This document shows positions 1-64,000 of a stretch of DNA of 64,000 nt, in pieces. The notes below the pieces were generated by a model. The model ran no database searches, was not told where the DNA came from, and was given only the letters and a program-made list of their open reading frames with translations. Every line of letters begins with the position of its first letter. Position 1 is the stretch's first letter. Both the position numbers and the translations under genes were made by a program. This DNA comes from Crossaster papposus (Eukaryota; Echinodermata; Asteroidea; Velatida; Solasteridae): positions 62,001-126,000 of the forward strand of contig JBAIAA010000735.1 of the NCBI GenBank assembly GCA_037893245.1, read 5' to 3'.

Positions 1-117
1 GCGCCACCATGCCTCATGTAAATTTAGAAAAACAACAAACAAAATAAAAGCAGACATTCTAAAAACATTCTAAAATAATTATTAAATTTGAATAACAGTG
101 AAGCAAAAATACCTCTT

Positions 118-190
118 TAGCAGAGCGAGGTTTCGGTCCTCGGGCCTCTGGGTTATGGGCCCATCACGCTTCCCACTGCACCACTCTGCG
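118..190 (-). tRNA. Initiator tRNA-Met-like cassette a (CAT), reference copy
   Basis: On the minus strand this 73-nt copy folds as an initiator tRNA. The anticodon loop is CCCATAA (CAT), the T arm CGAGG-ACCGAAA-CCTCG is fully paired, and the B box is GGACCGAAACC. The 3' acceptor half is CTCTGCT followed by A73. It departs from a canonical initiator by a C1-U72 mismatch, one extra G in the D loop and an A27-G43 mismatch. A T5 run follows about 12 nt downstream, as expected for a Pol III terminator. Other left-array copies start at 920, 1721, 2523, 3325, 4127, 4929, 5730, 6532, 7333, 8135, 8936, 9738, 10540, 11342, 12144, 12946, 13748, 14549, 15351, 16153, 16955 and 17757. Whether it is charged or transcribed cannot be judged here. 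Confidence 0.7.
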
Positions 191-239
191 TAACTATTTG
201 TAATGAAAATGAAATCACTTTCAAGGAAATAATTATCCT

Positions 240-311
240 GAGCAGACCGAGGTTGTGGTCAACCAAACTCTCGGGTACTGACCAAGAAAGTGTCTACTTT
301 GTCACTCCGAG
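240..311 (-). pseudogene. X1: decayed tRNA relic related to initiator tRNA-Met
   Basis: This 72-nt block aligns without gaps to the neighbouring cassettes. The best-preserved X copy (47604-47675) matches the intact initiator copy at 52 of 72 positions by my count. The anticodon stem still pairs (CTTGG with CCGAG), but the loop reads TCAGTAC/TCAGTAA, so the nominal anticodon is AGT rather than CAT. The T stem has at least two mismatches and the acceptor ends are unpaired. A short T run follows in the next spacer. It is one of two X relics per 802-bp unit and recurs at the same offset in every unit. I read it as an ancient duplicate, not as a threonine tRNA gene. Confidence 0.7.
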
Positions 312-342
312 TCGAGTACCTCATGTCATACCAAAAACTTGT

Positions 343-414
343 TAGCAGAGCGAGGTTTCGATCCTCGGACCTCTGGGTTATGGGCCCAGCACGCTTCAAC
401 TGCGCCACTATGCC
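343..414 (-). tRNA. Initiator tRNA-Met-like cassette b (CAT), reference copy
   Basis: The minus strand gives 72 nt in standard initiator geometry: D stem GCGC/GCGT, anticodon arm CTGGG-CCCATAA-CCCAG, and T arm CGAGG-ATCGAAA-CCTCG with A54 and A60, which mark eukaryotic initiators. The B box GGATCGAAACC is intact. Two lesions recur: the acceptor has a U5-C68 mismatch, and the D loop reads AGTTGAA, losing one of the two G residues (A box TGGCGCAGTTG). A T5 run lies about 5 nt past the 3' end. The copies listed in the array entry are nearly identical. This is the most initiator-like of the four repeated classes, but the D-loop defect makes function uncertain. Confidence 0.75.
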
Positions 415-516
415 TCATGTAAATTTAGAAAATGCAAACAAAATGAAAGCAGACATTCTAAAAACATTCTACAATATTTATTAAATGTGAATAGCAGTGA
501 AGCAAAAATACCTAGT

Positions 517-588
517 TAGCAAAGCGAGGTTTTGGTCCTCGGACCTCTGGGCTATGGGCCCATCACGCTCCCGCTGCACTACTCTGCG
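517..588 (-). tRNA. Initiator tRNA-Met-like cassette c (CAT), degenerate
   Basis: This 72-nt minus-strand copy keeps the CAT anticodon and a fully paired T stem (CGAGG/CCTCG). Position 38 is G in this copy (loop CCCATAG), and the T loop has drifted to ACCAAAA. The acceptor has C1-U72 and a G5-U68 wobble (3' half CTTTGCT), and positions 27-43 are A-G. The A box reads TAGTGCAGCGGG. A T5 run follows in the spacer. It sits at the position that a holds in the other monomer, so a and c are the two diverged versions of the first cassette of the ancestral ~401-bp monomer. Confidence 0.55.
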
Positions 589-637
589 TAACTATTTTTA
601 ATGAAAATGAAATCCCTATCAAATACAAAATTATCCT

Positions 638-709
638 GAGCAGACCGAGGTTGTGATCATCCGAACTCTCGGTTACTGACCAAGAAAGGGTCTACTTTGT
701 CACTCTGAG
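638..709 (-). pseudogene. X2: second decayed tRNA relic of the unit
   Basis: It is the counterpart of X1 in the other monomer, with the same 72-nt length, the same CTTGG/CCGAG anticodon stem and the AGT-containing loop. It differs from X1 by a few substitutions (for example GAGAGTTCGG where X1 has GAGAGTTTGG). The T arm is broken. Confidence 0.65.
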
Positions 710-743
710 TCGAGTACTTCAAGTCATACCAAAAACTTATTAG

Positions 744-815
744 CAGCAGAACGAGGTTTTGATCCTCGGCACTCTGGGTTATAGGCCCAGCAAGCTTCCA
801 CTGCGCCACCATGCC
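744..815 (-). pseudogene. Cassette d: initiator-derived tRNA with anticodon TAT
   Basis: The minus strand keeps the A box TGGCGCAGTGG and the anticodon stem CTGGG/CCCAG, but the loop is CCTATAA, so the anticodon is TAT instead of CAT. The acceptor 5' half GGCATGG pairs poorly with TTCTGCT (several wobbles and one mismatch), the 3' D stem is GCTT, and the nucleotide at 73 is G within a duplicated CTGCTGCT. The T stem pairs and the loop is ATCAAAA. The C-to-T anticodon change is present in every d copy I inspected in both arrays. A T5 run follows. It is probably a pseudogene, though a Pol III transcript is possible because both promoter boxes are largely kept. Confidence 0.6.
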
Positions 816-3800
816 TCATGTAAATTTAGAAAAACAACAAACAAAATAAAAGCAGACATTCTAAAAACATTCTAAAATAATTATTAAATTTGAATAACAG
901 TGAAGCAAAAATACCTCTTTAGCAGAGCGAGGTTTCGGTCCTCGGGCCTCTGGGTTATGGGCCCATCACGCTTCCCACTGCACCACTCTGCGTAACTATT
1001 TGTAATGAAAATGAAATCACTTTCAAGGAAATAATTATCCTGAGCAGACCGAGGTTGTGGTCAACCAAACTCTCGGGTACTGACCAAGAAAGTGTCTACT
1101 TTGTCACTCCGAGTCGAGTACCTCATGTCATACCAAAAACTTGTTAGCAGAGCGAGGTTTCGATCCTCGGACCTCTGGGTTATGGGCCCAGCACGCTTCA
1201 ACTGCGCCACTATGCCTCATGTAAATTTAGAAAATGCAAACAAATGAAAGCAGACATTCTAAAAACATTCTACAATATTTATTAAATGTGAATAGCAGTG
1301 AAGCAAAAATACCTAGTTAGCAAAGCGAGGTTTTGGTCCTCGGACCTCTGGGCTATGGGCCCATCACGCTCTCGCTGCACTACTCTGCGTAACTATTTTT
1401 AATGAAAATGAAATCCCTATCAAATACAAAATTATCCTGAGCAGACCGAGGTTGTGATCATCCGAACTCTCGGTTACTGACCAAGAAAGGGTCTACTTTG
1501 TCACTCTGAGTCGAGTACTTCAAGTCATACCAAAAACTTATTAGCAGCAGAACGAGGTTTTGATCCTCGGCACTCTGGGTTATAGGCCCAGCAAGCTTCC
1601 ACTGCGCCACCATGCCTCATGTAAATTTAGAAAAACAACAAACAAAATAAAAGCAGACATTTTAAAAACATTCTAAAATAATTATTAAATTTGAATAACA
1701 GTGAAGCAAAAATACCTCTTTAGCAGAGCGAGGTTTCGGTCCTCGGGCCTCTGGGTTATGGGCCCATCACGCTTCCCACTGCACCACTCTGCGTAACTAT
1801 TTGTAATGAAAATGAAATCACTTTCAAGGAAATAATTATCCTGAGCAGACCGAGGTTGTGGTCAACCAAACTCTCGGGTACTGACCAAGAAAGTGTCTAC
1901 TTTGTCACTCCGAGTCGAGTACCTCATGTCATACCAAAAACTTGTTAGCAGAGCGAGGTTTCGATCCTCGGACCTCTGGGTTATGGGCCCAGCACGCTTC
2001 AACTGCGCCACTATGCCTCATGTAAATTTAGAAAATGCAAACAAAATGAAAGCAGACATTCTAAAAACATTTTACAATATTTATTAAATGTGAATAGCAG
2101 TGAAGCAAAAATACCTAGTTAGCAAAGCGAGGTTTTGGTCCTCGGACCTCTGGGCTATGGGCCCATCACGCTCCCGCTGCACTACTCTGCGTAACTATTT
2201 TTAATGAAAATGAAATCCCTATCAAATACAAAATTATCCTGAGCAGACCGAGGTTGTGATCATCCGAACTCTCGGTTACTGACCAAGAAAGGGTCTACTT
2301 TGTCACTCGGAGTCGAGTACTTCAAGTCATACCAAAAACTTATTAGCAGCAGAACGAGGTTTTGATCCTCGGTACTCTGGGTTATAGGCCCAGCAAACTT
2401 CCACTGCGCCACCATGCCTCATGTAAATTTAGAAAAACAACAAACAAAATAAAAGCAGACATTCTAAAAACATTCTAAAATAATTATTAAATTTGAATAA
2501 CAGTGAAGCAAAAATACCTCTTTAGCAGAGCGAGGTTTCGGTCCTCGGGCCTCTGGGTTATGGGCCCATCACGCTTCCCACTGCACCACTCTGCGTAACT
2601 ATTTGTAATGAAAATGAAATCACTTTCAAGGAAATAATTATCCTGAGCAGACCGAGGTTGTGGTCAACCAAACTCTCGGGTACTGACCAAGAAAGTGTCT
2701 ACTTTGTCACTCCGAGTCGAGTACCTCATGTCATACCAAAAACTTGTTAGCAGAGCGAGGTTTCGATCCTCGGACCTCTGGGTTATGGGCCCAGCACGCT
2801 TCAACTGCGCCACTATGCCTCATGTAAATTTAGAAAATGCAAACAAAATGAAAGCAGACATTCTAAAAACATTCTACAATATTTATTAAATGTGAATAGC
2901 AGTGAAGCAAAAATACCTAGTTAGCAAAGCGAGGTTTTGGTCCTCGGACCTCTGGGCTATGGGCCCATCACGCTCCCGCTGCACTACTCTGCGTAACTAT
3001 TTTTAATGAAAATGAAATCCCTATCAAATACAAAATTATCCTGAGCAGACCGAGGTTGTGATCATCCGAACTCTCGGTTACTGACCAAGAAAGGGTCTAC
3101 TTTGTCACTCGGAGTCGAGTACTTCAAGTCATACCAAAAACTTATTAGCAGCAGAACGAGGTTTTGATCCTCGGTACTCTGGGTTATAGGCCCAGCAAAC
3201 TTCCACTGCGCCACCATGCCTCATGTAAATTTAGAAAAACAACAAACAAAATAAAAGCAGACATTCTAAAAACATTCTAAAATAATTATTAAATTTGAAT
3301 AACAGTGAAGCAAAAATACCTCTTTAGCAGAGCGAGGTTTCGGTCCTCGGGCCTCTGGGTTATGGGCCCATTACGCTTCCCACTGCACCACTCTGCGTAA
3401 CTATTTGTAATGAAAATGAAATCACTTTCAAGGAAATAATTATCCTGAGCAGACCGAGGTTGTGGTCAACCAAACTCTCGGGTACTGACCAAGAAAGTGT
3501 CTACTTTGTCACTCCGAGTCGAGTACCTCATGTCATACCAAAAACTTGTTAGCAGAGCGAGGTTTCGATCCTCGGACCTCTGGGTTATGGGCCCAGCACG
3601 CTTCAACTGCGCCACTATGCCTCATGTAAATTTAGAAAATGCAAACAAAATGAAAGCAGACATTCTAAAAATATTCTACAATATTTATTAAATGTGAATA
3701 GCAGTGAAGCAAAAATACCTAGTTAGCAAAGCGAGGTTTTGGTCCTCGGACCTCTGGGCTATGGGCCCATCACGCTCCCGCTGCACTACTCTGCATAACT

Positions 3801-4126
3801 ATTTTTAATGAAAATGAAATCCCTATCAAATACAAAATTATCCTGAGCAGACCGAGGTTGTGATCATCCGAACTCTCGGTTACTGACCAAGAAAGGGTGT
3901 ACTTTGTCACTCTGAGTCGAGTACTTCAAGTCATACCAAAAACTTATTAGCAGCAGAACGAGGTTTTGATCCTCGGCACTCTGGGTTATAGGCCCAGCAA
4001 GCTTCCACTGCGCCACCATGCCTCATGTAAATTTAGAAAAACAACAAACAAAATAAAAGCAGACATTCTAAAAACATTCTAAAATAATTATTAAATTTGA
4101 ATAACAGTGAAGCAAAAATACCTCTT

Positions 4127-7100
4127 TAGCAGAGCGAGGTTTTGGTCCTCGGGCCTCTGGGTTATGGGCCCATCACGCTTCCCACTGCACCACTCTGCGT
4201 AACTATTTGTAATGAAAATGAAATCACTTTCAAGGAAATAATTATCCTGAGCAGACCGAGGTTGTGGTCAACCAAACTCTCGGGTACTGACCAAGAAAGT
4301 GTCTACTTTGTCACTCCGAGTCGAGTACCTCATGTCATACCAAAAACTTGTTAGCAGAGCGAGGTTTCGATCCTCGGACCTCTGGGTTATGGGCCCAGCA
4401 CGCTTCAACTGCGCCACTATGCCTCATGTAAATTTAGAAAATGCAAACAAAATGAAAGCAGACATTCTAAAAACATTCTACAATATTTATTAAATGTGAA
4501 TAGCAGTGAAGCAAAAATACCTAGTTAGCAAAGCGAGGTTTTGGTCCTCGGACCTCTGGGCTATGGGCCCATCACGCTCCCGCTGCACTACTCTGCGTAA
4601 CTATTTTTAATGAAAATGAAATCCCTATCAAATACAAAATTATCCTGAGCAGACCGAGGTTGTGATCATCCGAACTCTCGGTTACTGACCAAGAAAGGGT
4701 CTACTTTGTCACTCTGAGTCGAGTACTTCAAGTCATACCAAAAACTTATTAGCAGCAGAACGAGGTTTTGATCCTCGGCACTCTGGGTTATAGGCCCAGC
4801 AAGCTTCCACTGCGCCACCATGCCTCATGTAAATTTAGAAAAACAACAAACAAAATAAAAGCAGACATTCTAAAAACATTCTAAAATAATTATTAAATTT
4901 GAATAACAGTGAAGCAAAAATACCTCTTTAGCAGAGCGAGGTTTCGGTCCTCGGGCCTCTGGGTTATGGGCCCATCACGCTTCCCACTGCACCACTCTGC
5001 GTAACTATTTGTAATGAAAATGAAATCACTTTCAAGGAAATAATTATCCTGAGCAGACCGAGGTTGTGGTCAACCAAACTCTCGGGTACTGACCAAGAAA
5101 GTGTCTACTTTGTCACTCCGAGTCGAGTACCTCATGTCATACCAAAAACTTGTTAGCAGAGCGAGGTTTCGATCCTCGGACCTCTGGGTTATGGGCCCAG
5201 CACGCTTCAACTGCGCCACTATGCCTCATGTAAATTTAGAAAATGCAAACAAATGAAAGCAGACATTCTAAAAACATTCTACAATATTTATTAAATGTGA
5301 ATAGCAGTGAAGCAAAAATACCTAGTTAGCAAAGCGAGGTTTTGGTCCTCGGACCTCTGGGCTATGGGCCCATCACGCTCTCGCTGCACTACTCTGCGTA
5401 ACTATTTTTAATGAAAATGAAATCCCTATCAAATACAAAATTATCCTGAGCAGACCGAGGTTGTGATCATCCGAACTCTCGGTTACTGACCAAGAAAGGG
5501 TCTACTTTGTCACTCTGAGTCGAGTACTTCAAGTCATACCAAAAACTTATTAGCAGCAGAACGAGGTTTTGATCCTCGGCACTCTGGGTTATAGGCCCAG
5601 CAAGCTTCCACTGCGCCACCATGCCTCATGTAAATTTAGAAAAACAACAAACAAAATAAAAGCAGACATTCTAAAAACATTCTAAAATAATTATTAAATT
5701 TGAATAACAGTGAAGCAAAAATACCTCTTTAGCAGAGCGAGGTTTTGGTCCTCGGGCCTCTGGGTTATGGGCCCATCACGCTTCCCACTGCACCACTCTG
5801 CGTAACTATTTGTAATGAAAATGAAATCACTTTCAAGGAAATAATTATCCTGAGCAGACCGAGGTTGTGGTCAACCAAACTCTCGGGTACTGACCAAGAA
5901 AGTGTCTACTTTGTCACTCCGAGTCGAGTACCTCATGTCATACCAAAAACTTGTTAGCAGAGCGAGGTTTCGATCCTCGGACCTCTGGGTTATGGGCCCA
6001 GCACGCTTCAACTGCGCCACTATGCCTCATGTAAATTTAGAAAATGCAAACAAAATGAAAGCAGACATTCTAAAAATATTCTACAATATTTATTAAATGT
6101 GAATAGCAGTGAAGCAAAAATACCTAGTTAGCAAAGCGAGGTTTTGGTCCTCGGACCTCTGGGCTATGGGCCCATCACGCTCCCGCTGCACTACTCTGCA
6201 TAACTATTTTTAATGAAAATGAAATCCCTATCAAATACAAAATTATCCTGAGCAGACCGAGGTTGTGATCATCCGAACTCTCGGTTACTGACCAAGAAAG
6301 GGTCTACTTTGTCACTCTGAGTCGAGTACTTCAAGTCATACCAAAAACTTATTAGCAGCAGAACGAGGTTTTGATCCTCGGCACTCTGGGTTATAGGCCC
6401 AGCAAGCTTCCACTGCGCCACCATGCCTCATGTAAATTTAGAAAAACAACAAACAAAATAAAAGCAGACATTCTAAAAACATTCTAAAATAATTATTAAA
6501 TTTGAATAACAGTGAAGCAAAAATACCTCTTTAGCAGAGCGAGGTTTCGGTCCTCGGGCCTCTGGGTTATGGGCCCATCACGCTTCCCACTGCACCACTC
6601 TGCGTAACTATTTGTAATGAAAATGAAATCACTTTCAAGGAAATAATTATCCTGAGCAGACCGAGGTTGTGGTCAACCAAACTCTCGGGTACTGACCAAG
6701 AAAGTGTCTACTTTGTCACTCCGAGTCGAGTACCTCATGTCATACCAAAAACTTGTTAGCAGAGCGAGGTTTCGATCCTCGGACCTCTGGGTTATGGGCC
6801 CAGCACGCTTCAACTGCGCCACTATGCCTCATGTAAATTTAGAAAATGCAAACAAATGAAAGCAGACATTCTAAAAACATTCTACAATATTTATTAAATG
6901 TGAATAGCAGTGAAGCAAAAATACCTAGTTAGCAAAGCGAGGTTTTGGTCCTCGGACCTCTGGGCTATGGGCCCATCACGCTCTCGCTGCACTACTCTGC
7001 GTAACTATTTTTAATGAAAATGAAATCCCTATCAAATACAAAATTATCCTGAGCAGACCGAGGTTGTGATCATCCGAACTCTCGGTTACTGACCAAGAAA

Positions 7101-8935
7101 GGGTCTACTTTGTCACTCTGAGTCGAGTACTTCAAGTCATACCAAAAACTTATTAGCAGCAGAACGAGGTTTTGATCCTCGGCACTCTGGGTTATAGGCC
7201 CAGCAAGCTTCCACTGCGCCACCATGCCTCATGTAAATTTAGAAAAACAACAAACAAAATAAAAGCAGACATTCTAAAAACATTCTAAAATAATTATTAA
7301 ATTTGAATAACAGTGAAGCAAAAATACCTCTTTAGCAGAGCGAGGTTTTGGTCCTCGGGCCTCTGGGTTATGGGCCCATCACGCTTCCCACTGCACCACT
7401 CTGCGTAACTATTTGTAATGAAAATGAAATCACTTTCAAGGAAATAATTATCCTGAGCAGACCGAGGTTGTGGTCAACCAAACTCTCGGGTACTGACCAA
7501 GAAAGTGTCTACTTTGTCACTCCGAGTCGAGTACCTCATGTCATACCAAAAACTTGTTAGCAGAGCGAGGTTTCGATCCTCGGACCTCTGGGTTATGGGC
7601 CCAGCACGCTTCAACTGCGCCACTATGCCTCATGTAAATTTAGAAAATGCAAACAAAATGAAAGCAGACATTCTAAAAACATTCTACAATATTTATTAAA
7701 TGTGAATAGCAGTGAAGCAAAAATACCTAGTTAGCAAAGCGAGGTTTTGGTCCTCGGACCTCTGGGCTATGGGCCCATCACGCTCCCGCTGCACTACTCT
7801 GCGTAACTATTTTTAATGAAAATGAAATCCCTATCAAATACAAAATTATCCTGAGCAGACCGAGGTTGTGATCATCCGAACTCTCGGTTACTGACCAAGA
7901 AAGGGTCTACTTTGTCACTCTGAGTCGAGTACTTCAAGTCATACCAAAAACTTATTAGCAGCAGAACGAGGTTTTGATCCTCGGCACTCTGGGTTATAGG
8001 CCCAGCAAGCTTCCACTGCGCCACCATGCCTCATGTAAATTTAGAAAAACAACAAACAAAATAAAAGCAGACATTCTAAAAACATTCTAAAATAATTATT
8101 AAATTTGAATAACAGTGAAGCAAAAATACCTCTTTAGCAGAGCGAGGTTTCGGTCCTCGGGCCTCTGGGTTATGGGCCCATCACGCTTCCCACTGCACCA
8201 CTCTGCGTAACTATTTGTAATGAAAATGAAATCACTTTCAAGGAAATAATTATCCTGAGCAGACCGAGGTTGTGGTCAACCAAACTCTCGGGTACTGACC
8301 AAGAAAGTGTCTACTTTGTCACTCCGAGTCGAGTACCTCATGTCATACCAAAAACTTGTTAGCAGAGCGAGGTTTCGATCCTCGGACCTCTGGGTTATGG
8401 GCCCAGCACGCTTCAACTGCGCCACTATGCCTCATGTAAATTTAGAAAATGCAAACAAATGAAAGCAGACATTCTAAAAACATTCTACAATATTTATTAA
8501 ATGTGAATAGCAGTGAAGCAAAAATACCTAGTTAGCAAAGCGAGGTTTTGGTCCTCGGACCTCTGGGCTATGGGCCCATCACGCTCTCGCTGCACTACTC
8601 TGCGTAACTATTTTTAATGAAAATGAAATCCCTATCAAATACAAAATTATCCTGAGCAGACCGAGGTTGTGATCATCCGAACTCTCGGTTACTGACCAAG
8701 AAAGGGTCTACTTTGTCACTCTGAGTCGAGTACTTCAAGTCATACCAAAAACTTATTAGCAGCAGAACGAGGTTTTGATCCTCGGCACTCTGGGTTATAG
8801 GCCCAGCAAGCTTCCACTGCGCCACCATGCCTCATGTAAATTTAGAAAAACAACAAACAAAATAAAAGCAGACATTTTAAAAACATTCTAAAATAATTAT
8901 TAAATTTGAATAACAGTGAAGCAAAAATACCTCTT
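4127..8935 (-). repeat. Three tandem copies of a 1603-bp super-repeat inside the left array
   Basis: Three consecutive pairs of units share the same combination of private variants. The first unit of each pair has GAGGTTTTGG in its a cassette (starting at 4127, 5730 and 7333). The second has the 1-nt deletion downstream of b and the CTCTCGCTGC variant in c (b at 5154, 6757 and 8360). The marked unit starts repeat every 1603 bp, so two-unit blocks have themselves been amplified. Confidence 0.8.
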
Positions 8936-11900
8936 TAGCAGAGCGAGGTTTCGGTCCTCGGGCCTCTGGGTTATGGGCCCATCACGCTTCCCACTGCACC
9001 ACTCTGCGTAACTATTTGTAATGAAAATGAAATCACTTTCAAGGAAATAATTATCCTGAGCAGACCGAGGTTGTGGTCAACCAAACTCTCGGGTACTGAC
9101 CAAGAAAGTGTCTACTTTGTCACTCCGAGTCGAGTACCTCATGTCATACCAAAAACTTGTTAGCAGAGCGAGGTTTCGATCCTCGGACCTCTGGGTTATG
9201 GGCCCAGCACGCTTCAACTGCGCCACTATGCCTCATGTAAATTTAGAAAATGCAAACAAAATGAAAGCAGACATTCTAAAAACATTTTACAATATTTATT
9301 AAATGTGAATAGCAGTGAAGCAAAAATACCTAGTTAGCAAAGCGAGGTTTTGGTCCTCGGACCTCTGGGCTATGGGCCCATCACGCTCCCGCTGCACTAC
9401 TCTGCGTAACTATTTTTAATGAAAATGAAATCCCTATCAAATACAAAATTATCCTGAGCAGACCGAGGTTGTGATCATCCGAACTCTCGGTTACTGACCA
9501 AGAAAGGGTCTACTTTGTCACTCGGAGTCGAGTACTTCAAGTCATACCAAAAACTTATTAGCAGCAGAACGAGGTTTTGATCCTCAGTACTCTGGGTTAT
9601 AGGCCCAGCAAACTTCCACTGCGCCACCATGCCTCATGTAAATTTAGAAAAACAACAAACAAAATAAAAGCAGACATTCTAAAAACATTCTAAAATAATT
9701 ATTAAATTTGAATAACAGTGAAGCAAAAATACCTCTTTAGCAGAGCGAGGTTTCGGTCCTCGGGCCTCTGGGTTATGGGCCCATCACGCTTCCCACTGCA
9801 CCACTCTGCGTAACTATTTGTAATGAAAATGAAATCACTTTCAAGGAAATAATTATCCTGAGCAGACCGAGGTTGTGGTCAACCAAACTCTCGGGTACTG
9901 ACCAAGAAAGTGTCTACTTTGTCACTCCGAGTCGAGTACCTCATGTCATACCAAAAACTTGTTAGCAGAGCGAGGTTTCGATCCTCGGACCTCTGGGTTA
10001 TGGGCCCAGCACGCTTCAACTGCGCCACTATGCCTCATGTAAATTTAGAAAATGCAAACAAAATGAAAGCAGACATTCTAAAAACATTCTACAATATTTA
10101 TTAAATGTGAATAGCAGTGAAGCAAAAATACCTAGTTAGCAAAGCGAGGTTTTGGTCCTCGGACCTCTGGGCTATGGGCCCATCACGCTCCCGCTGCACT
10201 ACTCTGCGTAACTATTTTTAATGAAAATGAAATCCCTATCAAATACAAAATTATCCTGAGCAGACCGAGGTTGTGATCATCCGAACTCTCGGTTACTGAC
10301 CAAGAAAGGGTCTACTTTGTCACTCGGAGTCGAGTACTTCAAGTCATACCAAAAACTTATTAGCAGCAGAACGAGGTTTTGATCCTCGGTACTCTGGGTT
10401 ATAGGCCCAGCAAACTTCCACTGCGCCACCATGCCTCATGTAAATTTAGAAAAACAACAAACAAAATAAAAGCAGACATTCTAAAAACATTCTAAAATAA
10501 TTATTAAATTTGAATAACAGTGAAGCAAAAATACCTCTTTAGCAGAGCGAGGTTTCGGTCCTCGGGCCTCTGGGTTATGGGCCCATTACGCTTCCCACTG
10601 CACCACTCTGCGTAACTATTTGTAATGAAAATGAAATCACTTTCAAGGAAATAATTATCCTGAGCAGACCGAGGTTGTGGTCAACCAAACTCTCGGGTAC
10701 TGACCAAGAAAGTGTCTACTTTGTCACTCCGAGTCGAGTACCTCATGTCATACCAAAAACTTGTTAGCAGAGCGAGGTTTCGATCCTCGGACCTCTGGGT
10801 TATGGGCCCAGCACGCTTCAACTGCGCCACTATGCCTCATGTAAATTTAGAAAATGCAAACAAAATGAAAGCAGACATTCTAAAAACATTCTACAATATT
10901 TATTAAATGTGAATAGCAGTGAAGCAAAAATACCTAGTTAGCAAAGCGAGGTTTTGGTCCTCGGACCTCTGGGCTATGGGCCCATCACGCTCCCGCTGCA
11001 CTACTCTGCGTAACTATTTTTAATGAAAATGAAATCCCTATCAAATACAAAATTATCCTGAGCAGACCGAGGTTGTGATCATCCGAACTCTCGGTTACTG
11101 ACCAAGAAAGGGTCTACTTTGTCACTCTGAGTCGAGTACTTCAAGTCATACCAAAAACTTATTAGCAGCAGAACGAGGTTTTGATCCTCGGCACTCTGGG
11201 TTATAGGCCCAGCAAGCTTCCACTGCGCCACCATGCCTCATGTAAATTTAGAAAAACAACAAACAAAATAAAAGCAGACATTCTAAAAACATTCTAAAAT
11301 AATTATTAAATTTGAATAACAGTGAAGCAAAAATACCTCTTTAGCAGAGCGAGGTTTCGGTCCTCGGGCCTCTGGGTTATGGGCCCATCACGCTTCCCAC
11401 TGCACCACTCTGCGTAACTATTTGTAATGAAAATGAAATCACTTTCAAGGAAATAATTATCCTGAGCAGACCGAGGTTGTGGTCAACCAAACTCTCGGGT
11501 ACTGACCAAGAAAGTGTCTACTTTGTCACTCCGAGTCGAGTACCTCATGTCATACCAAAAACTTGTTAGCAGAGCGAGGTTTCGATCCTCGGACCTCTGG
11601 GTTATGGGCCCAGCACGCTTCAACTGCGCCACTATGCCTCATGTAAATTTAGAAAATGCAAACAAAATGAAAGCAGACATTCTAAAAATATTCTACAATA
11701 TTTATTAAATGTGAATAGCAGTGAAGCAAAAATACCTAGTTAGCAAAGCGAGGTTTTGGTCCTTGGACCTCTGGGCTATGGGCCCATCACGCTCCCGCTG
11801 CACTACTCTGCATAACTATTTTTAATGAAAATGAAATCCCTATCAAATACAAAATTATCCTGAGCAGACCGAGGTTGTGATCATCCGAACTCTCGGTTAC

Positions 11901-47675: not shown

Positions 47676-47724
47676 AGGATAATTATTTCCTTGATAGTGA
47701 TTTCATTTTCATTAAAAATAGTTA

Positions 47725-47970: not shown

Positions 47971-48001
47971 ACAAGTTTTTGGTATGACATGAGGTACTCG
48001 A

Positions 48002-48369: not shown

Positions 48370-48698
48370 ACAAGTTTTTGGTATGACATGAGGTACTCGA
48401 CTCGGAGTGACAAAGTAGACACTTTCTTGATCAGTACCCGAGAGTTTGGTTGACCACAACCTCGGTCTGCTCAGGATAATTATTTCCTTGAAAGTGATTT
48501 CATTTTCATTACAAATAGTTACGCAGAGTGGTGCAGTGGGAAGCGTGATGGGCCCATAACCCAGAGGCCCGAGGACCAAAACCTCGCTCTGCTAAAGAGG
48601 TATTTTTGCTTCACTGTTATTCAAATTTAATAATTATTTTAGAATGTTTTTAGAATGTCTGCTTTTATTTTGTTTGTTGTTTTTCTAAATTTACATGA

Positions 48699-48772
48699 GG
48701 CATGGTGGCGCAGTGGAAGCTTGCTGGGCCTATAACCCAGAGTGCCGAGAAAAAAAAAACCTCGTTCTGCTG
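48699..48772 (+). pseudogene. Cassette d with a 10-base A run in the T arm
   Basis: Anticodon TAT as in all d copies. GCCGAGGATCAAAACCTCG of other copies is replaced by GCCGAG, ten A residues in place of the next stretch, then CCTCG, which removes the T-stem 5' half and the B box. Confidence 0.65.
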
Positions 48773-51731: not shown

Positions 51732-51803
51732 CGCAGAGTAGTGCAGCGGGAGCGTGATGGGCCCATAACCAAAAGGCCCGAGGACCGAAACCTCGCTCTG
51801 CTA
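51732..51803 (+). pseudogene. Chimeric cassette: c-type 5' half, a-type 3' half
   Basis: It sits where an a copy is expected but begins CGCAGAGTAGTGCAGCGGG like c and continues with the GGCCCGAGGACCGAAACC of a. It is one base shorter than a, which explains the 801-bp step here. The 3' anticodon stem reads CCAAA, so the arm is broken. The next a copy (52533) shares the CCAAA change. Confidence 0.7.
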
Positions 51804-54800
51804 AAGAGGTATTTTTGCTTCACTGTTATTCAAATTTAATAATTATTTTAGAATGTTTTTAGAATGTCTGCTTTTATTTTGTTTGTTGTTTTTCTAAATT
51901 TACATGAGGCATGGTGGCGCAGTGGAAGCTTGCTGGGCCTATAACCCAGAGTGCCGAAGATTAAAACCTCGTTCTGCTGCTAATAAGTTTTTGGTATGAC
52001 TTGAAGTACTCGACTCAGAGTGACAAAGTAGACCCTTTCTTGGTCAGTAACCGAGAGTTCGGATGATCACAACCTCGGTCTGCTCAGGATAATTGTGTAT
52101 TTGATAGGGATTTTATTTTCATTAAAAATAGTTACGCAGAGTAGTGCAGCGGGAGCGTGATGGGCCCATAACCCAGAGGTCCGAGGACCAAAACCTCGCT
52201 TTGCTAACGAGGTATTTTTGCTTCACTGCTATTCACATTTAATAAATATTGTAGAATGTTTTTAGAATGTCAGCTTTCATTTTGTTTGCATTTTCTAAAT
52301 TTACATGAGGCATAGTGGCGCAGTTGAAGCGTGCTGGGCCCATAACCCAGAGGTCCGAGGATCGAAACCTCGCTCTGCTAACAAGTTTTTGGTATGACAT
52401 GAGGTACTCGACTCGGGGTGACAAAGTAGACACTTTCTTGGTCAGTACCCGAGAGTTTGGTTGACCACAACCTCGGTCTGCTCAGGATAATTATTTCCTT
52501 GAAAGTGATTTCATTTTCATTACAAATAGTTACGCAGAGTGGTGCAGTGGGAAGCGTGATGGGCCCATAACCAAAAGGCCCGAGGACCGAAACCTCGCTC
52601 TGCTAAAGAGGTATTTTTGCTTCACTGTTATTCAAATTTAATAATTATTTTAGAATGTTTTTAGAATGTCTGCTTTTATTTTGTTTGTTGTTTTTCTAAA
52701 TTTACATGAGGCATGGTGGCGCAGTGGAAGCTTGCTGGGCCTATAACCCAGAGTGCCGAAGATTAAAACCTCGTTCTGCTGCTAATAAGTTTTTGGTATG
52801 ACTTGAAGTACTCGACTCAGAGTGACAAAGTAGACCCTTTCTTGGTCAGTAACCGAGAGTTCGGATGATCACAACCTCGGTCTGCTCAGGATAATTGTGT
52901 ATTTGATAGGGATTTTATTTTCATTAAAAATAGTTACGCAGAGTAGTGCAGCGGGAGCGTGATGGGCCCATAACCCAGAGGTCCGAGGACCAAAACCTCG
53001 CTTTGCTAACGAGGTATTTTTGCTTCACTGCTATTCACATTTAATAAATATTGTAGAATGTTTTTAGAATGTCTGCTTTCATTTTGTTTGCATTTTCTAA
53101 ATTTACATGAGGTATAGTGGCGCAGTTGAAGCGTGCTGGGCCCATAACCCAGAGGTCCGAGGATTGAAACCTCGCTCTGCTAACAAGTTTTTGGTATGAC
53201 ATGAGGTACTCGACTCGGAGTGACAAAGTAGACACTTTCTTGGTCAGTACCCGAGAGTTTGGTTGACCACAACCTCGGTCTGCTCAGGATAATTATTTCC
53301 TTGAAAGTGATTTCATTTTCATTACAAATAGTTACGCAGAGTGGTGCAGTGGGAAGCGTGATGGGCCCATAACCCAGAGGCCCGAGGACCGAAACCTTGC
53401 TCTGCTAAAGAGGTATTTTTGCTTCACTGTTATTCAAATTTAATAATTATTTTAGAATGTTTTTAGAATGTCTGCTTTTATTTTGTTTGTTGTTTTTCTA
53501 AATTTACATGAGGCATGGTGGCGCAGTGGAAGCTTGCTGGGCCTATAACCCAGAGTGCCGAAGATTAAAACCTCGTTCTGCTGCTAATAAGTTTTTGGTA
53601 TGACTTGAAGTACTCGACTCAGAGTGACAAAGTAGACCCTTTCTTGGTCAGTAACCGAGAGTTCGGATGATCACAACCTCGGTCTGCTCAGGATAATTGT
53701 GTATTTGATAGGGATTTTATTTTCATTAAAAATAGTTACGCAGAGTAGTGCAGCGGGAGCGTGATGGGCCCATAACCCAGAGGTCCGAGGACCAAAACCT
53801 CGCTTTGCTAACGAGGTATTTTTGCTTCACTGCTATTCACATTTAATAAATATTGTAGAATGTTTTTAGAATGTCTGCTTTCATTTTGTTTGCATTTTCT
53901 AAATTTACATGAGGTATAGTGGCGCAGTTGAAGCGTGCTGGGCCCATAACCCAGAGGTCCGAGGATTGAAACCTCGCTCTGCTAACAAGTTTTTGGTATG
54001 ACATGAGGTACTCGACTCGGAGTGACAAAGTAGACACTTTCTTGGTCAGTACCCGAGAGTTTGGTTGACCACAACCTCGGTCTGCTCAGGATAATTATTT
54101 CCTTGAAAGTGATTTCATTTTCATTACAAATAGTTACGCAGAGTGGTGCAGTGGGAAGCGTGATGGGCCCATAACCCAGAGGCCCGAGGACCGAAACCTT
54201 GCTCTGCTAAAGAGGTATTTTTGCTTCACTGTTATTCAAATTTAATAATTATTTTAGAATGTTTTTAGAATGTCTGCTTTTATTTTGTTTGTTGTTTTTC
54301 TAAATTTACATGAGGCATGGTGGCGCAGTGGAAGCTTGCTGGGCCTATAACCCAGAGTGCCGAAGATCAAAACCTCGTTCTGCTGCTAAAAAGTTTTTGG
54401 TATGACTTGAAGTACTCGACTCAGAGTGACAAAGTAGACCCTTTCTTGGTCAGTAACCGAGAGTTCGGATGATCACAACCTCGGTCTGCTCAGGATAATT
54501 GTGTATTTGATAGGGATTTTATTTTCATTAAAAATAGTTACGCAGAGTAGTGCAGCGGGAGCGTGATGGGCCCATAACCCAGAGGTCCGAGGACCAAAAC
54601 CTCGCTTTGCTAACGAGGTATTTTTGCTTCACTGCTATTCACATTTAATAAATATTGTAGAATGTTTTTAGAATGTCTGCTTTCATTTTGTTTGCATTTT
54701 CTAAATTTACATGAGGTATAGTGGCGCAGTTGAAGCGTGCTGGGCCCATAACCCAGAGGTCCGAGGATCGAAACCTCACTCTGCTAACAAGTTTTTGGTA

Positions 54801-57800
54801 TGACATGAGGTACTCGACTCGGAGTGACAAAGTAGACACTTTCTTGGTCAGTACCCGAGAGTTTGGTTGACCACAACCTCGGTCTGCTCAGGATAATTAT
54901 TTCCTTGAAAGTGATTTCATTTTCATTACAAATAGTTACGCAGAGTGGTGCAGTGGGAAGCGTGATGGGCCCATAACCCAGAGGCCCGAGGACCGAAACC
55001 TCGCTCTGCTAAAGAGGTATTTTTGCTTCACTGTTATTCAAATTTAATAATTATTTTAGAATGTTTTTAGAATGTCTGCTTTTATTTTGTTTGTTGTTTT
55101 TCTAAATTTACATGAGGCATGGTGGCGCAGTGGAAGCTTGCTGGGCCTATAACCCAGAGTGCCGAGGATCAAAACCTCGTTCTGCTGCTAATAAGTTTTT
55201 GGTATGACTTGAAGTACTCGACTCAGAGTGACAAAGTAGACCCTTTCTTGGTCAGTAACCGAGAGTTCGGATGATCACAACCTCGGTCTGCTCAGGATAA
55301 TTGTGTATTTGATAGGGATTTTATTTTCATTAAAAATAGTTACGCAGAGTAGTGCAGCGGGAGCGTGATGGGCCCATAACCCAGAGGTCCGAGGACCAAA
55401 ACCTCGCTTTGCTAACGAGGTATTTTTGCTTCACTGCTATTCACATTTAATAAATATTGTAGAATGTTTTTAGAATGTCTGCTTTCATTTTGTTTGCATT
55501 TTCTAAATTTACATGAGGTATAGTGGCGCAGTTGAAGCGTGCTGGGCCCATAACCCAGAGGTCCGAGGATCGAAACCTCACTCTGCTAACAAGTTTTTGG
55601 TATGACATGAGGTACTCGACTCGGAGTGACAAAGTAGACACTTTCTTGGTCAGTACCCGAGAGTTTGGTTGACCACAACCTCGGTCTGCTCAGGATAATT
55701 ATTTCCTTGAAAGTGATTTCATTTTCATTACAAATAGTTACGCAGAGTGGTGCAGTGGGAAGCGTGATGGGCCCATAACCCAGAGGCCCGAGGACCGAAA
55801 CCTCGCTCTGCTAAAGAGGTATTTTTGCTTCACTGTTATTCAAATTTAATAAATATTTTAGAATGTTTTTAGAATGTCTGCTTTTATTTTGTTTGTTGTT
55901 TTTCTAAATTTACATGAGGCATGGTGGCGCAGTGGAAGCTTGCTGGGCCTATAACCCAGAGTGCCGAAGATCAAAACCTCGTTCTGCTGCTAATAAGTTT
56001 TTGGTATGACTTGAAGTACTCGACTCAGAGTGACAAAGTAGACCCTTTCTTGGTCAGTAACCGAGAGTTCGGATGATCACAACCTCGGTCTGCTCAGGAT
56101 AATTGTGTATTTGATAGGGATTTTATTTTCATTAAAAATAGTTACGCAGAGTAGTGCAGCGGGAGCGTGATGGGCCCATAACCCAGAGGTCCGAGGACCA
56201 AAACCTCGCTTTGCTAACGAGGTATTTTTGCTTCACTGCTATTCACATTTAATAAATATTGTAGAATGTTTTTAGAATGTCTGCTTTCATTTTGTTTGCA
56301 TTTTCTAAATTTACATGAGGTATAGTGGCGCAGTTGAAGCGTGCTGGGCCCATAACCCAGAGGTCCGAGGATCGAAACCTCACTCTGCTAACAAGTTTTT
56401 GGTATGACATGAGGTACTCGACTCGGAGTGACAAAGTAGACACTTTCTTGGTCAGTACCCGAGAGTTTGGTTGACCACAACCTCGGTCTGCTCAGGATAA
56501 TTATTTCCTTGAAAGTGATTTCATTTTCATTACAAATAGTTACGCAGAGTGGTGCAGTGGGAAGCGTGATGGGCCCATAACCCAGAGGCCCGAGGACCGA
56601 AACCTCGCTCTGCTAAAGAGGTATTTTTGCTTCACTGTTATTCAAATTTAATAAATATTTTAGAATGTTTTTAGAATGTCTGCTTTTATTTTGTTTGTTG
56701 TTTTTCTAAATTTACATCAGGCATGGTGGCGCAGTGGAAGCTTGCTAAGCCTATAACCCAGAGTGCCGAGGATCAAAACCTTGTTCTGCTGCTAATAAGT
56801 TTTTGGTATGACTTGAAGTACTCGACTCAGAGTGACAAAGTAGACCCTTTCTTGGTCAGTAACCGAGAGTTCGGATGATCACAACCTCGGTCTGCTCAGG
56901 ATAATTGTGTATTTGATAGGGATTTTATTTTCATTAAAAATAGTTACGCAGAGTAGTGCAGCGGGAGCGTGATGGGCCCATAACCCAGAGGTCCGAGGAC
57001 CAAAACCTCGCTTTGCTAACGAGGTATTTTTGCTTCACTGCTATTCACATTTAATAAATATTGTAGAATGTTTTTAGAATGTCTGCTTTCATTTTGTTTG
57101 CATTTTCTAAATTTACATGAGGTATAGTGGCGCAGTTGAAGCGTGCTGGGCCCATAACCCAGAGGTCCGAGGATTGAAACCTCGCTCTGCTAACAAGTTT
57201 TTGGTATGACATGAGGTACTCGACTCGGAGTGACAAAGTAGACACTTTCTTGGTCAGTACCCGAGAGTTTGGTTGACCACAACCTCGGTCTGCTCAGGAT
57301 AATTATTTCCTTGAAAGTGATTTCATTTTCATTACAAATAGTTACGCAGAGTGGTGCAGTGGGAAGCGTGATGGGCCCATAACCCATAGGCCCGAGGACC
57401 GAAACCTCGCTCTGCTAAAGAGGTATTTTTGCTTCACTGTTATTCAAATTTAATAATTATTTTAGAATGTATTTAGAATGTCTGCTTTTATTTTGTTTGT
57501 TGTTTTTCTAAATTTACATGAGGCATGGTGGCGCAGTGGAAGCTTGCTGGGCCTATAACCCAGAGTGCCGAAGATCAAAACCTCGTTCTGCTGCTAATAA
57601 GTTTTTGGTATGACTTGAAGTACTCGACTCAGAGTGACAAAGTAGACCCTTTCTTGGTCAGTAACCGAGAGTTCGGATGATCACAACCTCGGTCTGCTCA
57701 GGATAATTGTGTATTTGATAGGGATTTTATTTTCATTAAAAATAGTTACGCAGAGTAGTGCAGCGGGAGCGTGATGGGCCCATAACCCAGAGGTCCGAGG

Positions 57801-60800
57801 ACCAAAACCTCGCTTTGCTAACGAGGTATTTTTGCTTCACTGCTATTCACATTTAATAAATATTGTAGAATGTTTTTAGAATGTCTGCTTTCATTTTGTT
57901 TGCATTTTCTAAATTTACATGAGGTATAGTGGCGCAGTTGAAGCGTGCTGGGCCCATAACCCAGAGGTCCGAGGATCGAAACCTCACTCTGCTAACAAGT
58001 TTTTGGTATGACATGAGGTACTCGACTCGGAGTGACAAAGTAGACACTTTCTTGGTCAGTACCCGAGAGTTTGGTTGACCACAACCTCGGTCTGCTCAGG
58101 ATAATTATTTCCTTGAAAGTGATTTCATTTTCATTACAAATAGTTACGCAGAGTGGTGCAGTGGGAAGCGTGATGGGCCCATAACCCAGAGGCCCGAGGA
58201 CCGAAACCTCGCTCTGCTAAAGAGGTATTTTTGCTTCACTGTTATTCAAATTTAATAATTATTTTAGAATGTTTTTAGAATGTCTGCTTTTATTTTGTTT
58301 GTTGTTTTTCTAAATTTACATGAGGCATGGTGGCGCAGTGGAAGCTTGCTGGGCCTATAACCCAGAGTGCCGAGGATCAAAACCTCGTTCTGCTGCTAAT
58401 AAGTTTTTGGTATGACTTGAAGTACTCGACTCAGAGTGACAAAGTAGACCCTTTCTTGGTCAGTAACCGAGAGTTCGGATGATCACAACCTCGGTCTGCT
58501 CAGGATAATTGTGTATTTGATAGGGATTTTATTTTCATTAAAAATAGTTACGCAGAGTAGTGCAGCGGGAGCGTGATGGGCCCATAGCCCAGAGGTCCGA
58601 GGACCAAAACCTCGCTTTGCTAATTAGGTATTTTTGCTTCACTGCTATTCACATTTAATAAATATTGTAGAATGTTTTTAGAATGTCAGCTTTCATTTTG
58701 TTTGCATTTTCTAAATTTACATGAGGCATAGTGGCGCAGTTGAAGCGTGCTGGGCCCATAACCCAGAGGTCCGAGGATCGAAACCTCGCTCTGCTAACAA
58801 GTTTTTGGTATGACATGAGGTACTCGACTCGGGGTGACAAAGTAGACACTTTCTTGGTCAGTACCCGAGAGTTTGGTTGACCACAACCTCGGTCTGCTCA
58901 GGATAATTATTTCCTTGAAAGTGATTTCATTTTCATTACAAATAGTTACGCAGAGTGGTGCAGTGGGAAGCGTGATGGGCCCATAACCCAAAGGCCCGAG
59001 GACCGAAACCTCGCTCTGCTAAAGAGGTATTTTTGCTTCACTGTTATTCAAATTTAATAATTATTTTAGAATGTTTTTAGAATGTCTGCTTTTATTTTGT
59101 TTGTTGTTTTTCTAAATTTACATGAGGCATGGTGGCGCAGTGGAAGCTTGCTGGGCCTATAACCCAGAGTGCCGAGGATCAAAACCTTGTTCTGCTGCTA
59201 ATAAGTTTTTGGTATGACTTGAAGTACTCGACTCAGAGTGACAAAGTAGACCCTTTCTTGGTCAGTAACCGAGAGTTCGGATGATCACAACCTCGGTCTG
59301 CTCAGGATAATTTTGTATTTGATAGGGATTTCATTTTCATTAAAAATAGTTACGCAGAGTAGTGCAGCGGGAGCGTGATGGGCCCATAGCCCAGAGGTCC
59401 GAGGACCAAAACCTCGCTTTGCTAATTAGGTATTTTTGCTTCACTGCTATTCACATTTAATAAATATTGTAGAATGTTTTTAGAATGTCAGCTTTCATTT
59501 TGTTTGCATTTTCTAAATTTACATGAGGCATAGTGGCGCAGTTGAAGCGTGCTGGGCCCATAACCCAGAGGTCCGAGGATCGAAACCTCACTCTGCTAAC
59601 AAGTTTTTGGTATGACATGAGGTACTCGACTCGGAGTGACAAAGTAGACACTTTCTTGGTCAGTACCCGAGAGTTTGGTTGACCACAACCTCGGTCTGCT
59701 CAGGATAATTATTTCCTTGAAAGTGATTTCATTTTCATTACAAATAGTTACGCAGAGTGGTGCAGTGGGAAGCGTGATGGGCCCATAACCCAGAGGCCCG
59801 AGGACCGAAACCTCGCTCTGCTAAAGAGGTATTTTTGCTTCACTGTTATTCAAATTTAATAATTATTTTAGAATGTTTTTAGAATGTCTGCTTTTATTTT
59901 GTTTGTTGTTTTTCTAAATTTACATGAGGCATGGTGGCGCAGTGGAAGCTTGCTGGGCCTATAACCCAGAGTGCCGAGGATCAAAACCTCGTTCTGCTGC
60001 TAATAAGTTTTTGGTATGACTTGAAGTACTCGACTCAGAGTGACAAAGTAGACCCTTTCTTGGTCAGTAACCGAGAGTTCGGATGATCACAACCTCGGTC
60101 TGCTCAGGATAATTGTGTATTTGATAGGGATTTTATTTTCATTAAAAATAGTTACGCAGAGTAGTGCAGCGGGAGCGTGATGGGCCCATAACCCAGAGGT
60201 CCGAGGACCAAAACCTCGCTTTGCTAATGAGGTATTTTTGCTTCACTGCTATTCACATTTAATAAATATTGTAGAATGTTTTTAGAATGTCTGCTTTCAT
60301 TTTGTTTGCATTTTCTAAATTTACATGAGGTATAGTGGCGCAGTTGAAGCGTGCTGGGCCCATAACCCAGAGGTCCGAGGATTGAAACCTCGCTCTGCTA
60401 ACAAGTTTTTGGTATGACATGAGGTACTCGACTCGGAGTGACAAAGTAGACACTTTCTTGGTCAGTACCCGAGAGTTTGGTTGACCACAACCTCGGTCTG
60501 CTCAGGATAATTATTTCCTTGAAAGTGATTTCATTTTCATTACAAATAGTTACGCAGAGTGGTGCAGTGGGAAGCGTGATGGGCCCATAACCCAGAGGCC
60601 CGAGGACCGAAACCTCGCTCTGCTAAAGAGGTATTTTTGCTTCACTGTTATTCAAATTTAATAATTATTTTAGAATGTTTTTAGAATGTCTGCTTTTATT
60701 TTGTTTGTTGTTTTTCTAAATTTACATGAGGCATGGTGGCGCATTGGAAGCTTGCTGGGCCTATAACCCAGAGTGCCGAAGATCAAAACCTCGTTCTGCT

Positions 60801-61935
60801 GCTAATAAGTTTTTGGTATGACTTGAAGTACTCGACTCAGAGTGACAAAGTAGACCCTTTCTTGGTCAGTAACCGAGAGTTCGGATGATCACAACCTCGG
60901 TCTGCTCAGGATAATTGTGTATTTGATAGGGATTTTATTTTCATTAAAAATAGTTACGCAGAGTAGTGCAGCGGGAGCGTGATGGGCCCATAACCCAGAG
61001 GTCCGAGGACCAAAACCTCGCTTTGCTAACGAGGTATTTTTGCTTCACTGCTATTCACATTTAATAAATATTGTAGAATGTTTTTAGAATGTCTGCTTTC
61101 ATTTTGTTTGCATTTTCTAAATTTACATGAGGTATAGTGGCGCAGTTGAAGCGTGCTGGGCCCATAACCCAGAGGTCCGAGGATCGAAACCTCACTCTGC
61201 TAACAAGTTTTTGGTATGACATGAGGTACTCGACTCGGAGTGACAAAGTAGACACTTTCTTGGTCAGTACCCGAGAGTTTGGTTGACCACAACCTCGGTC
61301 TGCTCAGGATAATTATTTCCTTGAAAGTGATTTCATTTTCATTACAAATAGTTACGCAGAGTGGTGCAGTGGGAAGCGTGATGGGCCCATAACCCAGAGG
61401 CCCGAGGACCGAAACCTCGCTCTGCTAAAGAGGTATTTTTGCTTCACTGTTATTCAAATTTAATAATTATTTTAGAATGTTTTTAGAATGTCTGCTTTTA
61501 TTTTGTTTGTTGTTTTTCTAAATTTACATGAGGCATGGTGGCGCAGTGGAAGCTTGCTGGGCCTATAACCCAGAGTGCCGAGGATCAAAACCTCGTTCTG
61601 CTGCTAATAAGTTTTTGGAATGACTTGAAGTACTCGACTCAGAGTGACAAAGTAGACCCTTTCTTGGTCAGTAACCGAGAGTTCGGATGATCACAACCTC
61701 GGTCTGCTCAGGATAATTGTGTATTTGATAGGGATTTTATTTTCATTAAAAATAGTTACGCAGAGTAGTGCAGCGGGAGCGTGATGGGCCCATAACCCAG
61801 AGGTCCGAGGACCAAAACCTCGCTTTGCTAACGAGGTATTTTTGCTTCACTGCTATTCACATTTAATAAATATTGTAGAATGTTTTTAGAATGTCTGCTT
61901 TTATTTTGTTTGTTGTTTTTTCTAAATTTACATCA

Positions 61936-62007
61936 GGCATGGTGGCGCAGTGGAAGCTTGCTAAGCCTATAACCCAGAGTGCCGAGGATCAAAACCTTGT
62001 TCTGCTG
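61936..62007 (+). pseudogene. Cassette d directly after c: site of a missing half-unit
   Basis: The order around 61760-62340 is c, d, X2, c, b. The expected b, X1 and a are absent, so the b-to-b distance is 1206 bp instead of 1604. The spacer before this d begins as the b-side spacer (ATATTGTAGAATG) and ends as the d-side spacer (TTTGTTTGTTG). Anticodon TAT, CTAAGCC variant. Confidence 0.75.
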
Positions 62008-64000
62008 CTAATAAGTTTTTGGTATGACTTGAAGTACTCGACTCAGAGTGACAAAGTAGACCCTTTCTTGGTCAGTAACCGAGAGTTCGGATGATCACAA
62101 CCTCGGTCTGCTCAGGATAATTTTGTATTTGATAGAGATTTCATTTTCATTAAAAATAGTTACGCAGAGTAGTGCAGCGGGAGCGTGATGGGCCCATAGC
62201 CCAGAGGTCCGAGGACCAAAACCTCGCTTTGCTAATTAGGTATTTTTGCTTCACTGCTATTCACATTTAATAAATATTGTAGAATGTTTTTAGAATGTCA
62301 GCTTTCATTTTGTTTGCATTTTCTAAATTTACATGAGGCATAGTGGCGCAGTTGAAGCGTGCTGGGCCCATAACCCAGAGGTCCGAGGATCGAAACCTCG
62401 CTCTGCTAACAAGTTTTTGGTATGACATGAGGTACTCGACTCGGGGTGACAAAGTAGACACTTTCTTGGTCAGTACCCGAGAGTTTGGTTGACCACAACC
62501 TCGGTCTGCTCAGGATAATTATTTCCTTGAAAGTGATTTCATTTTCATTACAAATAGTTACGCAGAGTGGTGCAGTGGGAAGCGTGATGGGCCCATAACC
62601 CAAAGGCCCGAGGACCGAAACCTCGCTCTGCTAAAGAGGTATTTTTGCTTCACTGTTATTCAAATTTAATAATTATTTTAGAATGTTTTTAGAATGTCTG
62701 CTTTTATTTTGTTTGTTGTTTTTCTAAATTTACATGAGGCATGGTGGCGCAGTGGAAGCTTGCTGGGCCTATAACCCAGAGTGCCGAGGATCAAAACCTT
62801 GTTCTGCTGCTAATAAGTTTTTGGTATGACTTGAAGTACTCGACTCAGAGTGACAAAGTAGACCCTTTCTTGGTCAGTAACCGAGAGTTCGGATGATCAC
62901 AACCTCGGTCTGCTCAGGATAATTTTGTATTTGATAGGGATTTCATTTTCATTAAAAATAGTTACGCAGAGTAGTGCAGCGGGAGCGTGATGGGCCCATA
63001 GCCCAGAGGTCCGAGGACCAAAACCTCGCTTTGCTAATTAGGTATTTTTGCTTCACTGCTATTCACATTTAATAAATATTGTAGAATGTTTTTAGAATGT
63101 CAGCTTTCATTTTGTTTGCATTTTCTAAATTTACATGAGGCATAGTGGCGCAGTTGAAGCGTGCTGGGCCCATAACCCAGAGGTCCGAGGATCGAAACCT
63201 CGCTCTGCTAACAAGTTTTTGGTATGACATGAGGTACTCGACTCGGGGTGACAAAGTAGACACTTTCTTGGTCAGTACCCGAGAGTTTGGTTGACCACAA
63301 CCTCGGTCTGCTCAGGATAATTATTTCCTTGAAAGTGATTTCATTTTCATTACAAATAGTTACGCAGAGTGGTGCAGTGGGAAGCGTGATGGGCCCATAA
63401 CCCAAAGGCCCGAGGACCGAAACCTCGCTCTGCTAAAGAGGTATTTTTGCTTCACTGTTATTCAAATTTAATAATTATTTTAGAATGTTTTTAGAATGTC
63501 TGCTTTTATTTTGTTTGTTGTTTTTCTAAATTTACATGAGGCATGGTGGCGCAGTGGAAGCTTGCTGGGCCTATAACCCAGAGTGCCGAGGATCAAAACC
63601 TCGTTCTGCTGCTAATAAGTTTTTGGTATGACTTGAAGTACTCGACTCAGAGTGACAAAGTAGACCCTTTCTTGGTCAGTAACCGAGAGTTCGGATGATC
63701 ACAACCTCGGTCTGCTCAGGATAATTGTGTATTTGATAGGGATTTTATTTTCATTAAAAATAGTTACGCAGAGTAGTGCAGCGGGAGCGTGATGGGCCCA
63801 TAACCCAGAGGTCCGAGGACCAAAACCTCGCTTTGCTAACGAGGTATTTTTGCTTCACTGCTATTCACATTTAATAAATATTGTAGAATGTTTTTAGAAT
63901 GTCTGCTTTCATTTTGTTTGCATTTTCTAAATTTACATGAGGTATAGTGGCGCAGTTGAAGCGTGCTGGGCCCATAACCCAGAGGTCCGAGGATCAAAAC

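Follow-up and report, generated by a model that had tools for sequence, protein, structure and literature searches.

The initiator tRNA gene is usually regarded as low-copy, and the level of initiator tRNA can limit protein synthesis. In Xenopus, initiator tRNA genes are part of the 3.18-kb tDNA repeat, a high-copy tandem repeat with a mixed-isotype unit. Several further systems come close to the locus described here. Amphibian genomes contain Pol III-type tandem repeats, namely newt PolIII/TAN (tRNA-Glu), Xenopus OAX/satellite 1 and Rana/polIII (PMC10702118), which, as that report presents them, share with our locus tandem units carrying a tRNA-derived or tRNA-like segment. The human 1q23.3 repeat is likewise a tandem tRNA-gene array, reported with units about 98% alike and with LTR elements flanking it (PMC4041453), the tandem tRNA arrays of Entamoeba are given as more than 10% of its genome (PMC2652664), and the Arabidopsis SYY locus is a tandem tRNA cluster described as silenced in most tissues (PMC12308677).

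In this study, we have analysed a stretch of 64,000 nucleotides from the sea star Crossaster papposus (the window; C735:62001-126000, in an assembly of 1.02 Gb and 1841 contigs), about 35 kb of which consists of arrays of initiator-type tRNA copies. We are fairly confident that it represents a branch, now decayed and dispersed, of an initiator-tRNA gene array, built as satellite DNA.

Array layout and unit anatomy

The window holds two head-to-head arrays of an 802-bp unit, which are read on opposite strands and point away from each other:

1..18159, minus strand: left array of the 802-bp satellite, with 90 complete cassettes
47239..64000, plus strand: right array, with 83 complete cassettes and a further one truncated at the window end

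In the contig, the left array reaches the terminus at the contig start (80,159 bp in total), and the right array continues past the window (72,533 bp in total) until its far end meets a different tandem array with a 1.72-kb unit. Arrays of this second kind occupy C735:181772-194588, abutting the right array, and 203366-223600 (L021, L022, L023, L024, L025). By eye, they contain stretches resembling a degenerate non-initiator tRNA; no tRNA was called in their scanned parts, either by Rfam (L021, L022, L024, L025) or by ARAGORN.

Each 802-bp unit divides into halves of 401 bp, A-relic-B and C-relic-D, where the letters denote four classes of initiator-type cassettes. The 173 complete cassettes of the window comprise 44 of class A, 41 of class B, 42 of class C, 44 of class D and two of an edge type, and 87 places match the 3' part of the relic. 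The inner edge of the right array contains a relic and a pair of intermediate half-units:

47604..47677, plus strand: relic, a full-length, strongly diverged tRNA-derived cassette, present once per 401-bp half-unit
47488..48288, plus strand: two edge half-units (402 and 399 bp), similar to both half-types

The edge relic aligns without internal gaps over the whole tRNA, scoring 79 where 500 shuffles reach 34 at most; for its 5' half, the score exceeds those of all 1,000 shuffles. As this relic, the one tested, is a full-length older tRNA copy, the unit consists of six tRNA-derived cassettes. The preliminary description had counted four cassettes and two relics per unit; these relics are now seen to be older tRNA copies. 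The two edge half-units are intermediate in their identity to the two half-types (0.923/0.891 and 0.910/0.948), and look like an old array edge.

Units have a mean identity of 0.994 in the left array and of 0.988 in the right one; across the two arrays it is 0.987. The arrays are thus long, head-to-tail and homogenised, with a multimeric unit, as is characteristic of satellite DNA. The tRNA-derived copies observed sit in tandem arrays; a tRNA-derived SINE would be marked by dispersed single copies with a LINE-like tail. Taken together, the unit anatomy, the counts, the unit identities and the two half-types support the earlier proposal of a higher-order satellite of initiator tRNA copies, and the two arrays, the 802-bp unit with its four initiator-type cassettes and the estimate of about 170 cassettes in 35 kb were likewise confirmed.

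Between the arrays lie sequences of other kinds, two of which abut them or belong to an abutting block:

18155..18897, no strand assigned: dispersed element of about 743 bp abutting the left array
45966..46799, minus strand: integrase fragment from a degenerate retroelement of the Ty3/gypsy type, within the block abutting the right array

The integrase was the sole Pfam match among 13 ORFs of the window middle. No homologues were found for the ORF at 32324-32752, and the DNA patterns sought in viral contigs gave 0 matches. Beside the 743-bp element, the segment 18901-21352 has 107-bp inverted ends (98%) and is perhaps a nested DNA transposon. Nested inverted repeats at 22825-31002 (22825-23440 versus 30383-31002, 96%; 25682-26205 versus 29426-29953, 91%) resemble a DNA transposon or foldback element, and a second tandem array at 37164-43586 consists of about 6.7 copies of a unit of about 920 bp, each carrying an internal pair of inverted ends (about 37 bp).

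Structural state and variation of the cassettes

The four classes and the edge type differ in the lesions that they carry, as seen in the following examples:

17982..18053, minus strand: class A, initiator-like, anticodon CAT, with an acceptor mismatch and TG replacing GG in the D loop
17757..17829, minus strand: class B, with a C1:U72 mismatch, an anticodon-stem mismatch and an altered T loop
17581..17652, minus strand: class C, anticodon TAT, with D-stem and acceptor mismatches
49730..49801, plus strand: class D, a variant accepted by Rfam at 36.0 bits
47497..47568, plus strand: edge cassette, the sole fully paired one of 173, at 56.3 bits

The Rfam tRNA model accepts 134 places, namely 133 complete cassettes and the one cut at the window end. 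Sorted by position, acceptance falls from class A (44/44) and the edge type (2/2) through class B (40/41) and class C (33/42) to class D (14/44), the 14 accepted places of the latter including a B-like copy at 51732 that is shorter by one base. ARAGORN identifies 31 tRNAs in the window. The Rfam model accepts members of all four classes, in total 133 of the 173 complete cassettes.

Acceptance by the model goes together with widespread damage. All stems are paired in just one of the 173 cassettes (47497-47568, at the inner edge) and in one of 756 in the whole contig; the other 172 in the window have at least one unpaired stem position, in support of the earlier statement that most copies carry class-specific lesions. 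The intact cloverleaf with CAT that identifies an initiator tRNA gene is therefore not what the window cassettes present, 172 of the 173 failing at pairing. Class A combines an acceptor-stem mismatch and an altered D loop with the anticodon CAT, nearly all B and D copies have C1:U72 and an anticodon-stem mismatch, and class C has D-stem and acceptor mismatches together with the anticodon TAT. The latter is found in 42 window cassettes, so that one satellite class has a TAT anticodon within an initiator-like body. The T-loop part of the B box is kept in 38 of the 44 class A copies; B-box positions are variable, with alterations in the other three classes. Odd changes cluster close to the right inner edge, at about 48700-48780 and at 47899-47970, such as a T arm containing an A run and a D arm containing a T run.

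T-runs follow 172 of the 173 cassettes, as a Pol III terminator would. As TTTT is also present in 169 of 195 all-spacer windows of 30 nt, these runs are uninformative on terminators, and we rejected them as a sign that terminators have been kept.

Sequence variation was examined in 39 aligned units out of 42 cut, those of 399, 402 and 1206 bp being dropped. Variable columns are more frequent in cassettes (28/289) than in the rest of the unit (23/513; p=0.006). The difference shrinks when sites are matched by base: it is 25/175 in cassettes versus 12/165 elsewhere for G or C sites (p=0.054), 17/139 versus 12/149 for G/C sites outside CpG (p=0.25), and 3/114 versus 11/348 for A or T sites (p=1). 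CpG sites are themselves more variable than other sites (8/52 versus 43/750, p=0.013). Fast mutation of the cassettes as a signature of transcription was rejected on these grounds; as to strand bias, 14 G>A against 8 C>T changes show none that is clear. Since the base-matched excess is weak and variation is no lower in the cassettes, these are at least not protected, and the sequences give no measurable sign of present selection for tRNA function.

Comparisons between classes reach further back. The bodies of classes A and B are 0.89 identical and their 5' flanks 0.55, near the 0.50 of shuffled sequences, as expected if the bodies were once under selection; gene conversion exchanging bodies could be an alternative cause. 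For classes C and D, the values are 0.76 for bodies and 0.53 for 5' flanks. Between half-units, bodies (8/72 and 6/72), relics (3/38) and spacers (21/214) differ about equally.

These data bear on two other readings of the window. In the first, the cassettes would be kept as binding sites for TFIIIC and Pol III within a chromatin or boundary element, and not as tRNAs. The human 1q23.3 tandem repeat is reported to bind CTCF and proposed as a boundary element (PMC4041453), and the B-box bases of class A are mostly intact; however, the variable B-box positions, their alteration in the three other classes and the lack of excess conservation in the cassettes make this reading improbable. Slightly less probable still is a dosage or storage device, in which many weakly functional initiator genes would jointly supply tRNA, for instance in the oocyte. 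The proportion of cassettes above the Rfam threshold would agree with it, as would the CAT anticodon and largely kept T-loop part of the B box in class A, but practically every cassette has unpaired stem positions and the cassettes are no more conserved than the spacers.

An intact relative on contig C146 and dispersal of the satellite

A GGG/CCC anticodon stem is a mark of initiator tRNA. On contig C146, the spacers and relics of the window surround cassettes with full pairing, the anticodon CAT and A1:U72, the last also an initiator mark (PMC8450103). In 20 kb sampled there, full pairing is seen in 40 of 97 cassettes. Of these, 39 belong to a canonical class of 46 cassettes and also carry CAT and A1:U72; they combine the cloverleaf, CAT, A1:U72 and GGG/CCC stem of an intact initiator. 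Nine canonical-class cassettes score 53.7-58.7 bits, versus 49.8 for the commonest class A cassette of the window. The edge cassette at 47497-47568 equals an intact C146 gene except for G instead of A at position 1, and this G form occurs exactly at 12 places in the genome.

The exact 72-nt intact gene has 1,281 copies in the assembly and a 35-mer from its 5' half has 2,634, against 0 for the control in both cases. Among the places listed, all copies of the 72-mer and all but two of the 35-mer are on C146; as these are the first places only, remaining intact copies could sit outside this contig. C146 was sampled with 37 probes. Between 5.47 and 6.70 Mb, the array was hit by 18 of 19 probes, the exception being at 6.20, and it was also hit at 4.40 and at 4.45 Mb, in the second case with window-type classes. 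No array was found by one probe before 4.40 Mb, 11 between 4.45 and 5.47 Mb and four after 6.70 Mb, nor in a 5-kb stretch at 5.0 Mb.

In gapped comparisons, the canonical class varies at 5/72 and 3/72 body positions versus 9/60 and 7/60 positions of the 5' flanks. The broken classes show the same tendency (b, bodies 12/72 versus flanks 31/60; k, 4/72 versus 5/60), and hence body conservation on C146 is no proof of tRNA function. We consider C146 to be likely the gene array, and the window its decayed relative. In this regard, the dosage device suggested in the preliminary description is not supported for the window, whose cassettes drift like spacers and which probably has no such role; it is plausible for C146, which, with its intact genes and their copy number, could have one.

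The satellite itself is widely dispersed. A 35-mer marker of class A, matched by 32 of the 44 class A cassettes of the window, has 7,123 exact copies in the assembly (control 0), which, at one marker per 401 to 802 bp, corresponds very roughly to 3-6 Mb of satellite. At the right inner edge, with 36 of 3,207 candidates scored, 20 rows span the junction and a 4-kb block spanning this edge is complete at 17 places (97-100% identical), one of which is the window itself. Seven of eight edge loci compared have this junction in common, which the eighth, L003, has lost. At the inner edge of the left array, 40 of 945 candidates were scored, and the junction between the array and the 743-bp element is spanned by 31 rows, the window among them; the element occurs without the array at six further places, and left-flank matches mostly stop at the inverted-end element at 18901-21352. 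We considered whether the array simply travels inside the gypsy element and rejected this, as a right block of at least 4 kb is shared and so is the left flank; the copied block was therefore larger. Each of six left-edge matches on C146 has a right-edge match of the same orientation further along, at a distance of 16-28 kb for five of them and of 92 kb for the sixth, which indicates that a block made of the middle and its outward arrays was copied. Contigs C13 and C723 yield parallel hits, perhaps as two haplotypes, so that the edge-match places are not independent loci. COX1 on a putatively mitochondrial contig of the assembly has its best matches in sea stars (91% to Meridiastra gunnii), although it was translated with code 5. 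Contig C8 (more than 5 Mb) carries COX1-family genes without in-frame stops and is perhaps from a bacterial symbiont or a contaminant.

Least probable of all is that the assembler multiplied a few real units, for although some regions may be represented by both haplotypes in the assembly, as the parallel hits on C13 and C723 suggest, a simple assembly loop is argued against by the differences between units and by longest exact self-repeats of 2236 bp (left) and 1454 bp (right), and the arrays recur on many contigs.

Proposed origin of the arrays and comparison with known systems

All together, our results allow us to outline how a branch of an initiator-tRNA gene array may have decayed into the satellite of the window. 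Cassettes made of a tRNA body and spacer would have given rise to a three-cassette 401-bp repeat, two diverged copies of which formed the 802-bp unit; this unit would then have spread into long arrays, probably by unequal exchange. The nesting of the repeats is evident from their anatomy, and the process of spreading is our reconstruction. To judge from the divergence of bodies and flanks, selection would have acted on the cassettes at a stage preceding the three-cassette repeat, and is no longer measurable. Together with their flanking block, the arrays were copied to many places in the genome, and the sister array on C146 kept or regained intact initiator genes at very high copy number. Descent is here taken to run from the C146 type to the window type, an inferred direction, unrooted by an outgroup. 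C146 would then supply initiator tRNA and the satellite would be silent. The gene that starts every protein thus seems to have turned into a huge gene array and, at the same time, into satellite DNA. More tentatively, initiator supply might be run like ribosomal DNA, with well over 1,000 near-identical C146 genes homogenised by concerted evolution and used where initiation is massive, for example in the oocyte, and with the dispersed 802-bp satellite as a continual decay product; we regard this as possible rather than probable.

More than a thousand identical, intact-looking copies and thousands of decayed units in one genome assembly would allow initiator dosage by amplification to be tested directly, and would make testable by what means tRNA arrays are homogenised or lost and how satellite DNA arises from a tRNA gene. 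Judged by titles and the beginnings of abstracts, with subscription journals mostly outside its reach, the literature yielded no array recognised as comparable for initiator tRNA. Satellites derived from tRNA and tandem tRNA arrays are known; such a scale for the initiator appears to be new.

Unlike the window, the human 1q23.3 array is described with a 7.3-kb unit of five genes of several isotypes, with tRNA genes conserved in mouse and with 9-43 units per allele (PMC4041453). The arrays of Entamoeba, as reported, comprise 25 distinct units that hold almost all tRNA genes, rather than one initiator (PMC2652664). The Arabidopsis SYY cluster consists of Ser/Tyr genes, with 54 clustered Tyr genes, and is described as a core with flanks richer in variants and pseudogenes (PMC12308677), a pattern that the window reverses, as its intact cassette lies at the array edge. 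Finally, the amphibian repeats have one tRNA-like segment per unit, for which the report discusses a SINE origin (PMC10702118), whereas the sea star has six initiator-derived cassettes per unit and an intact sister array.
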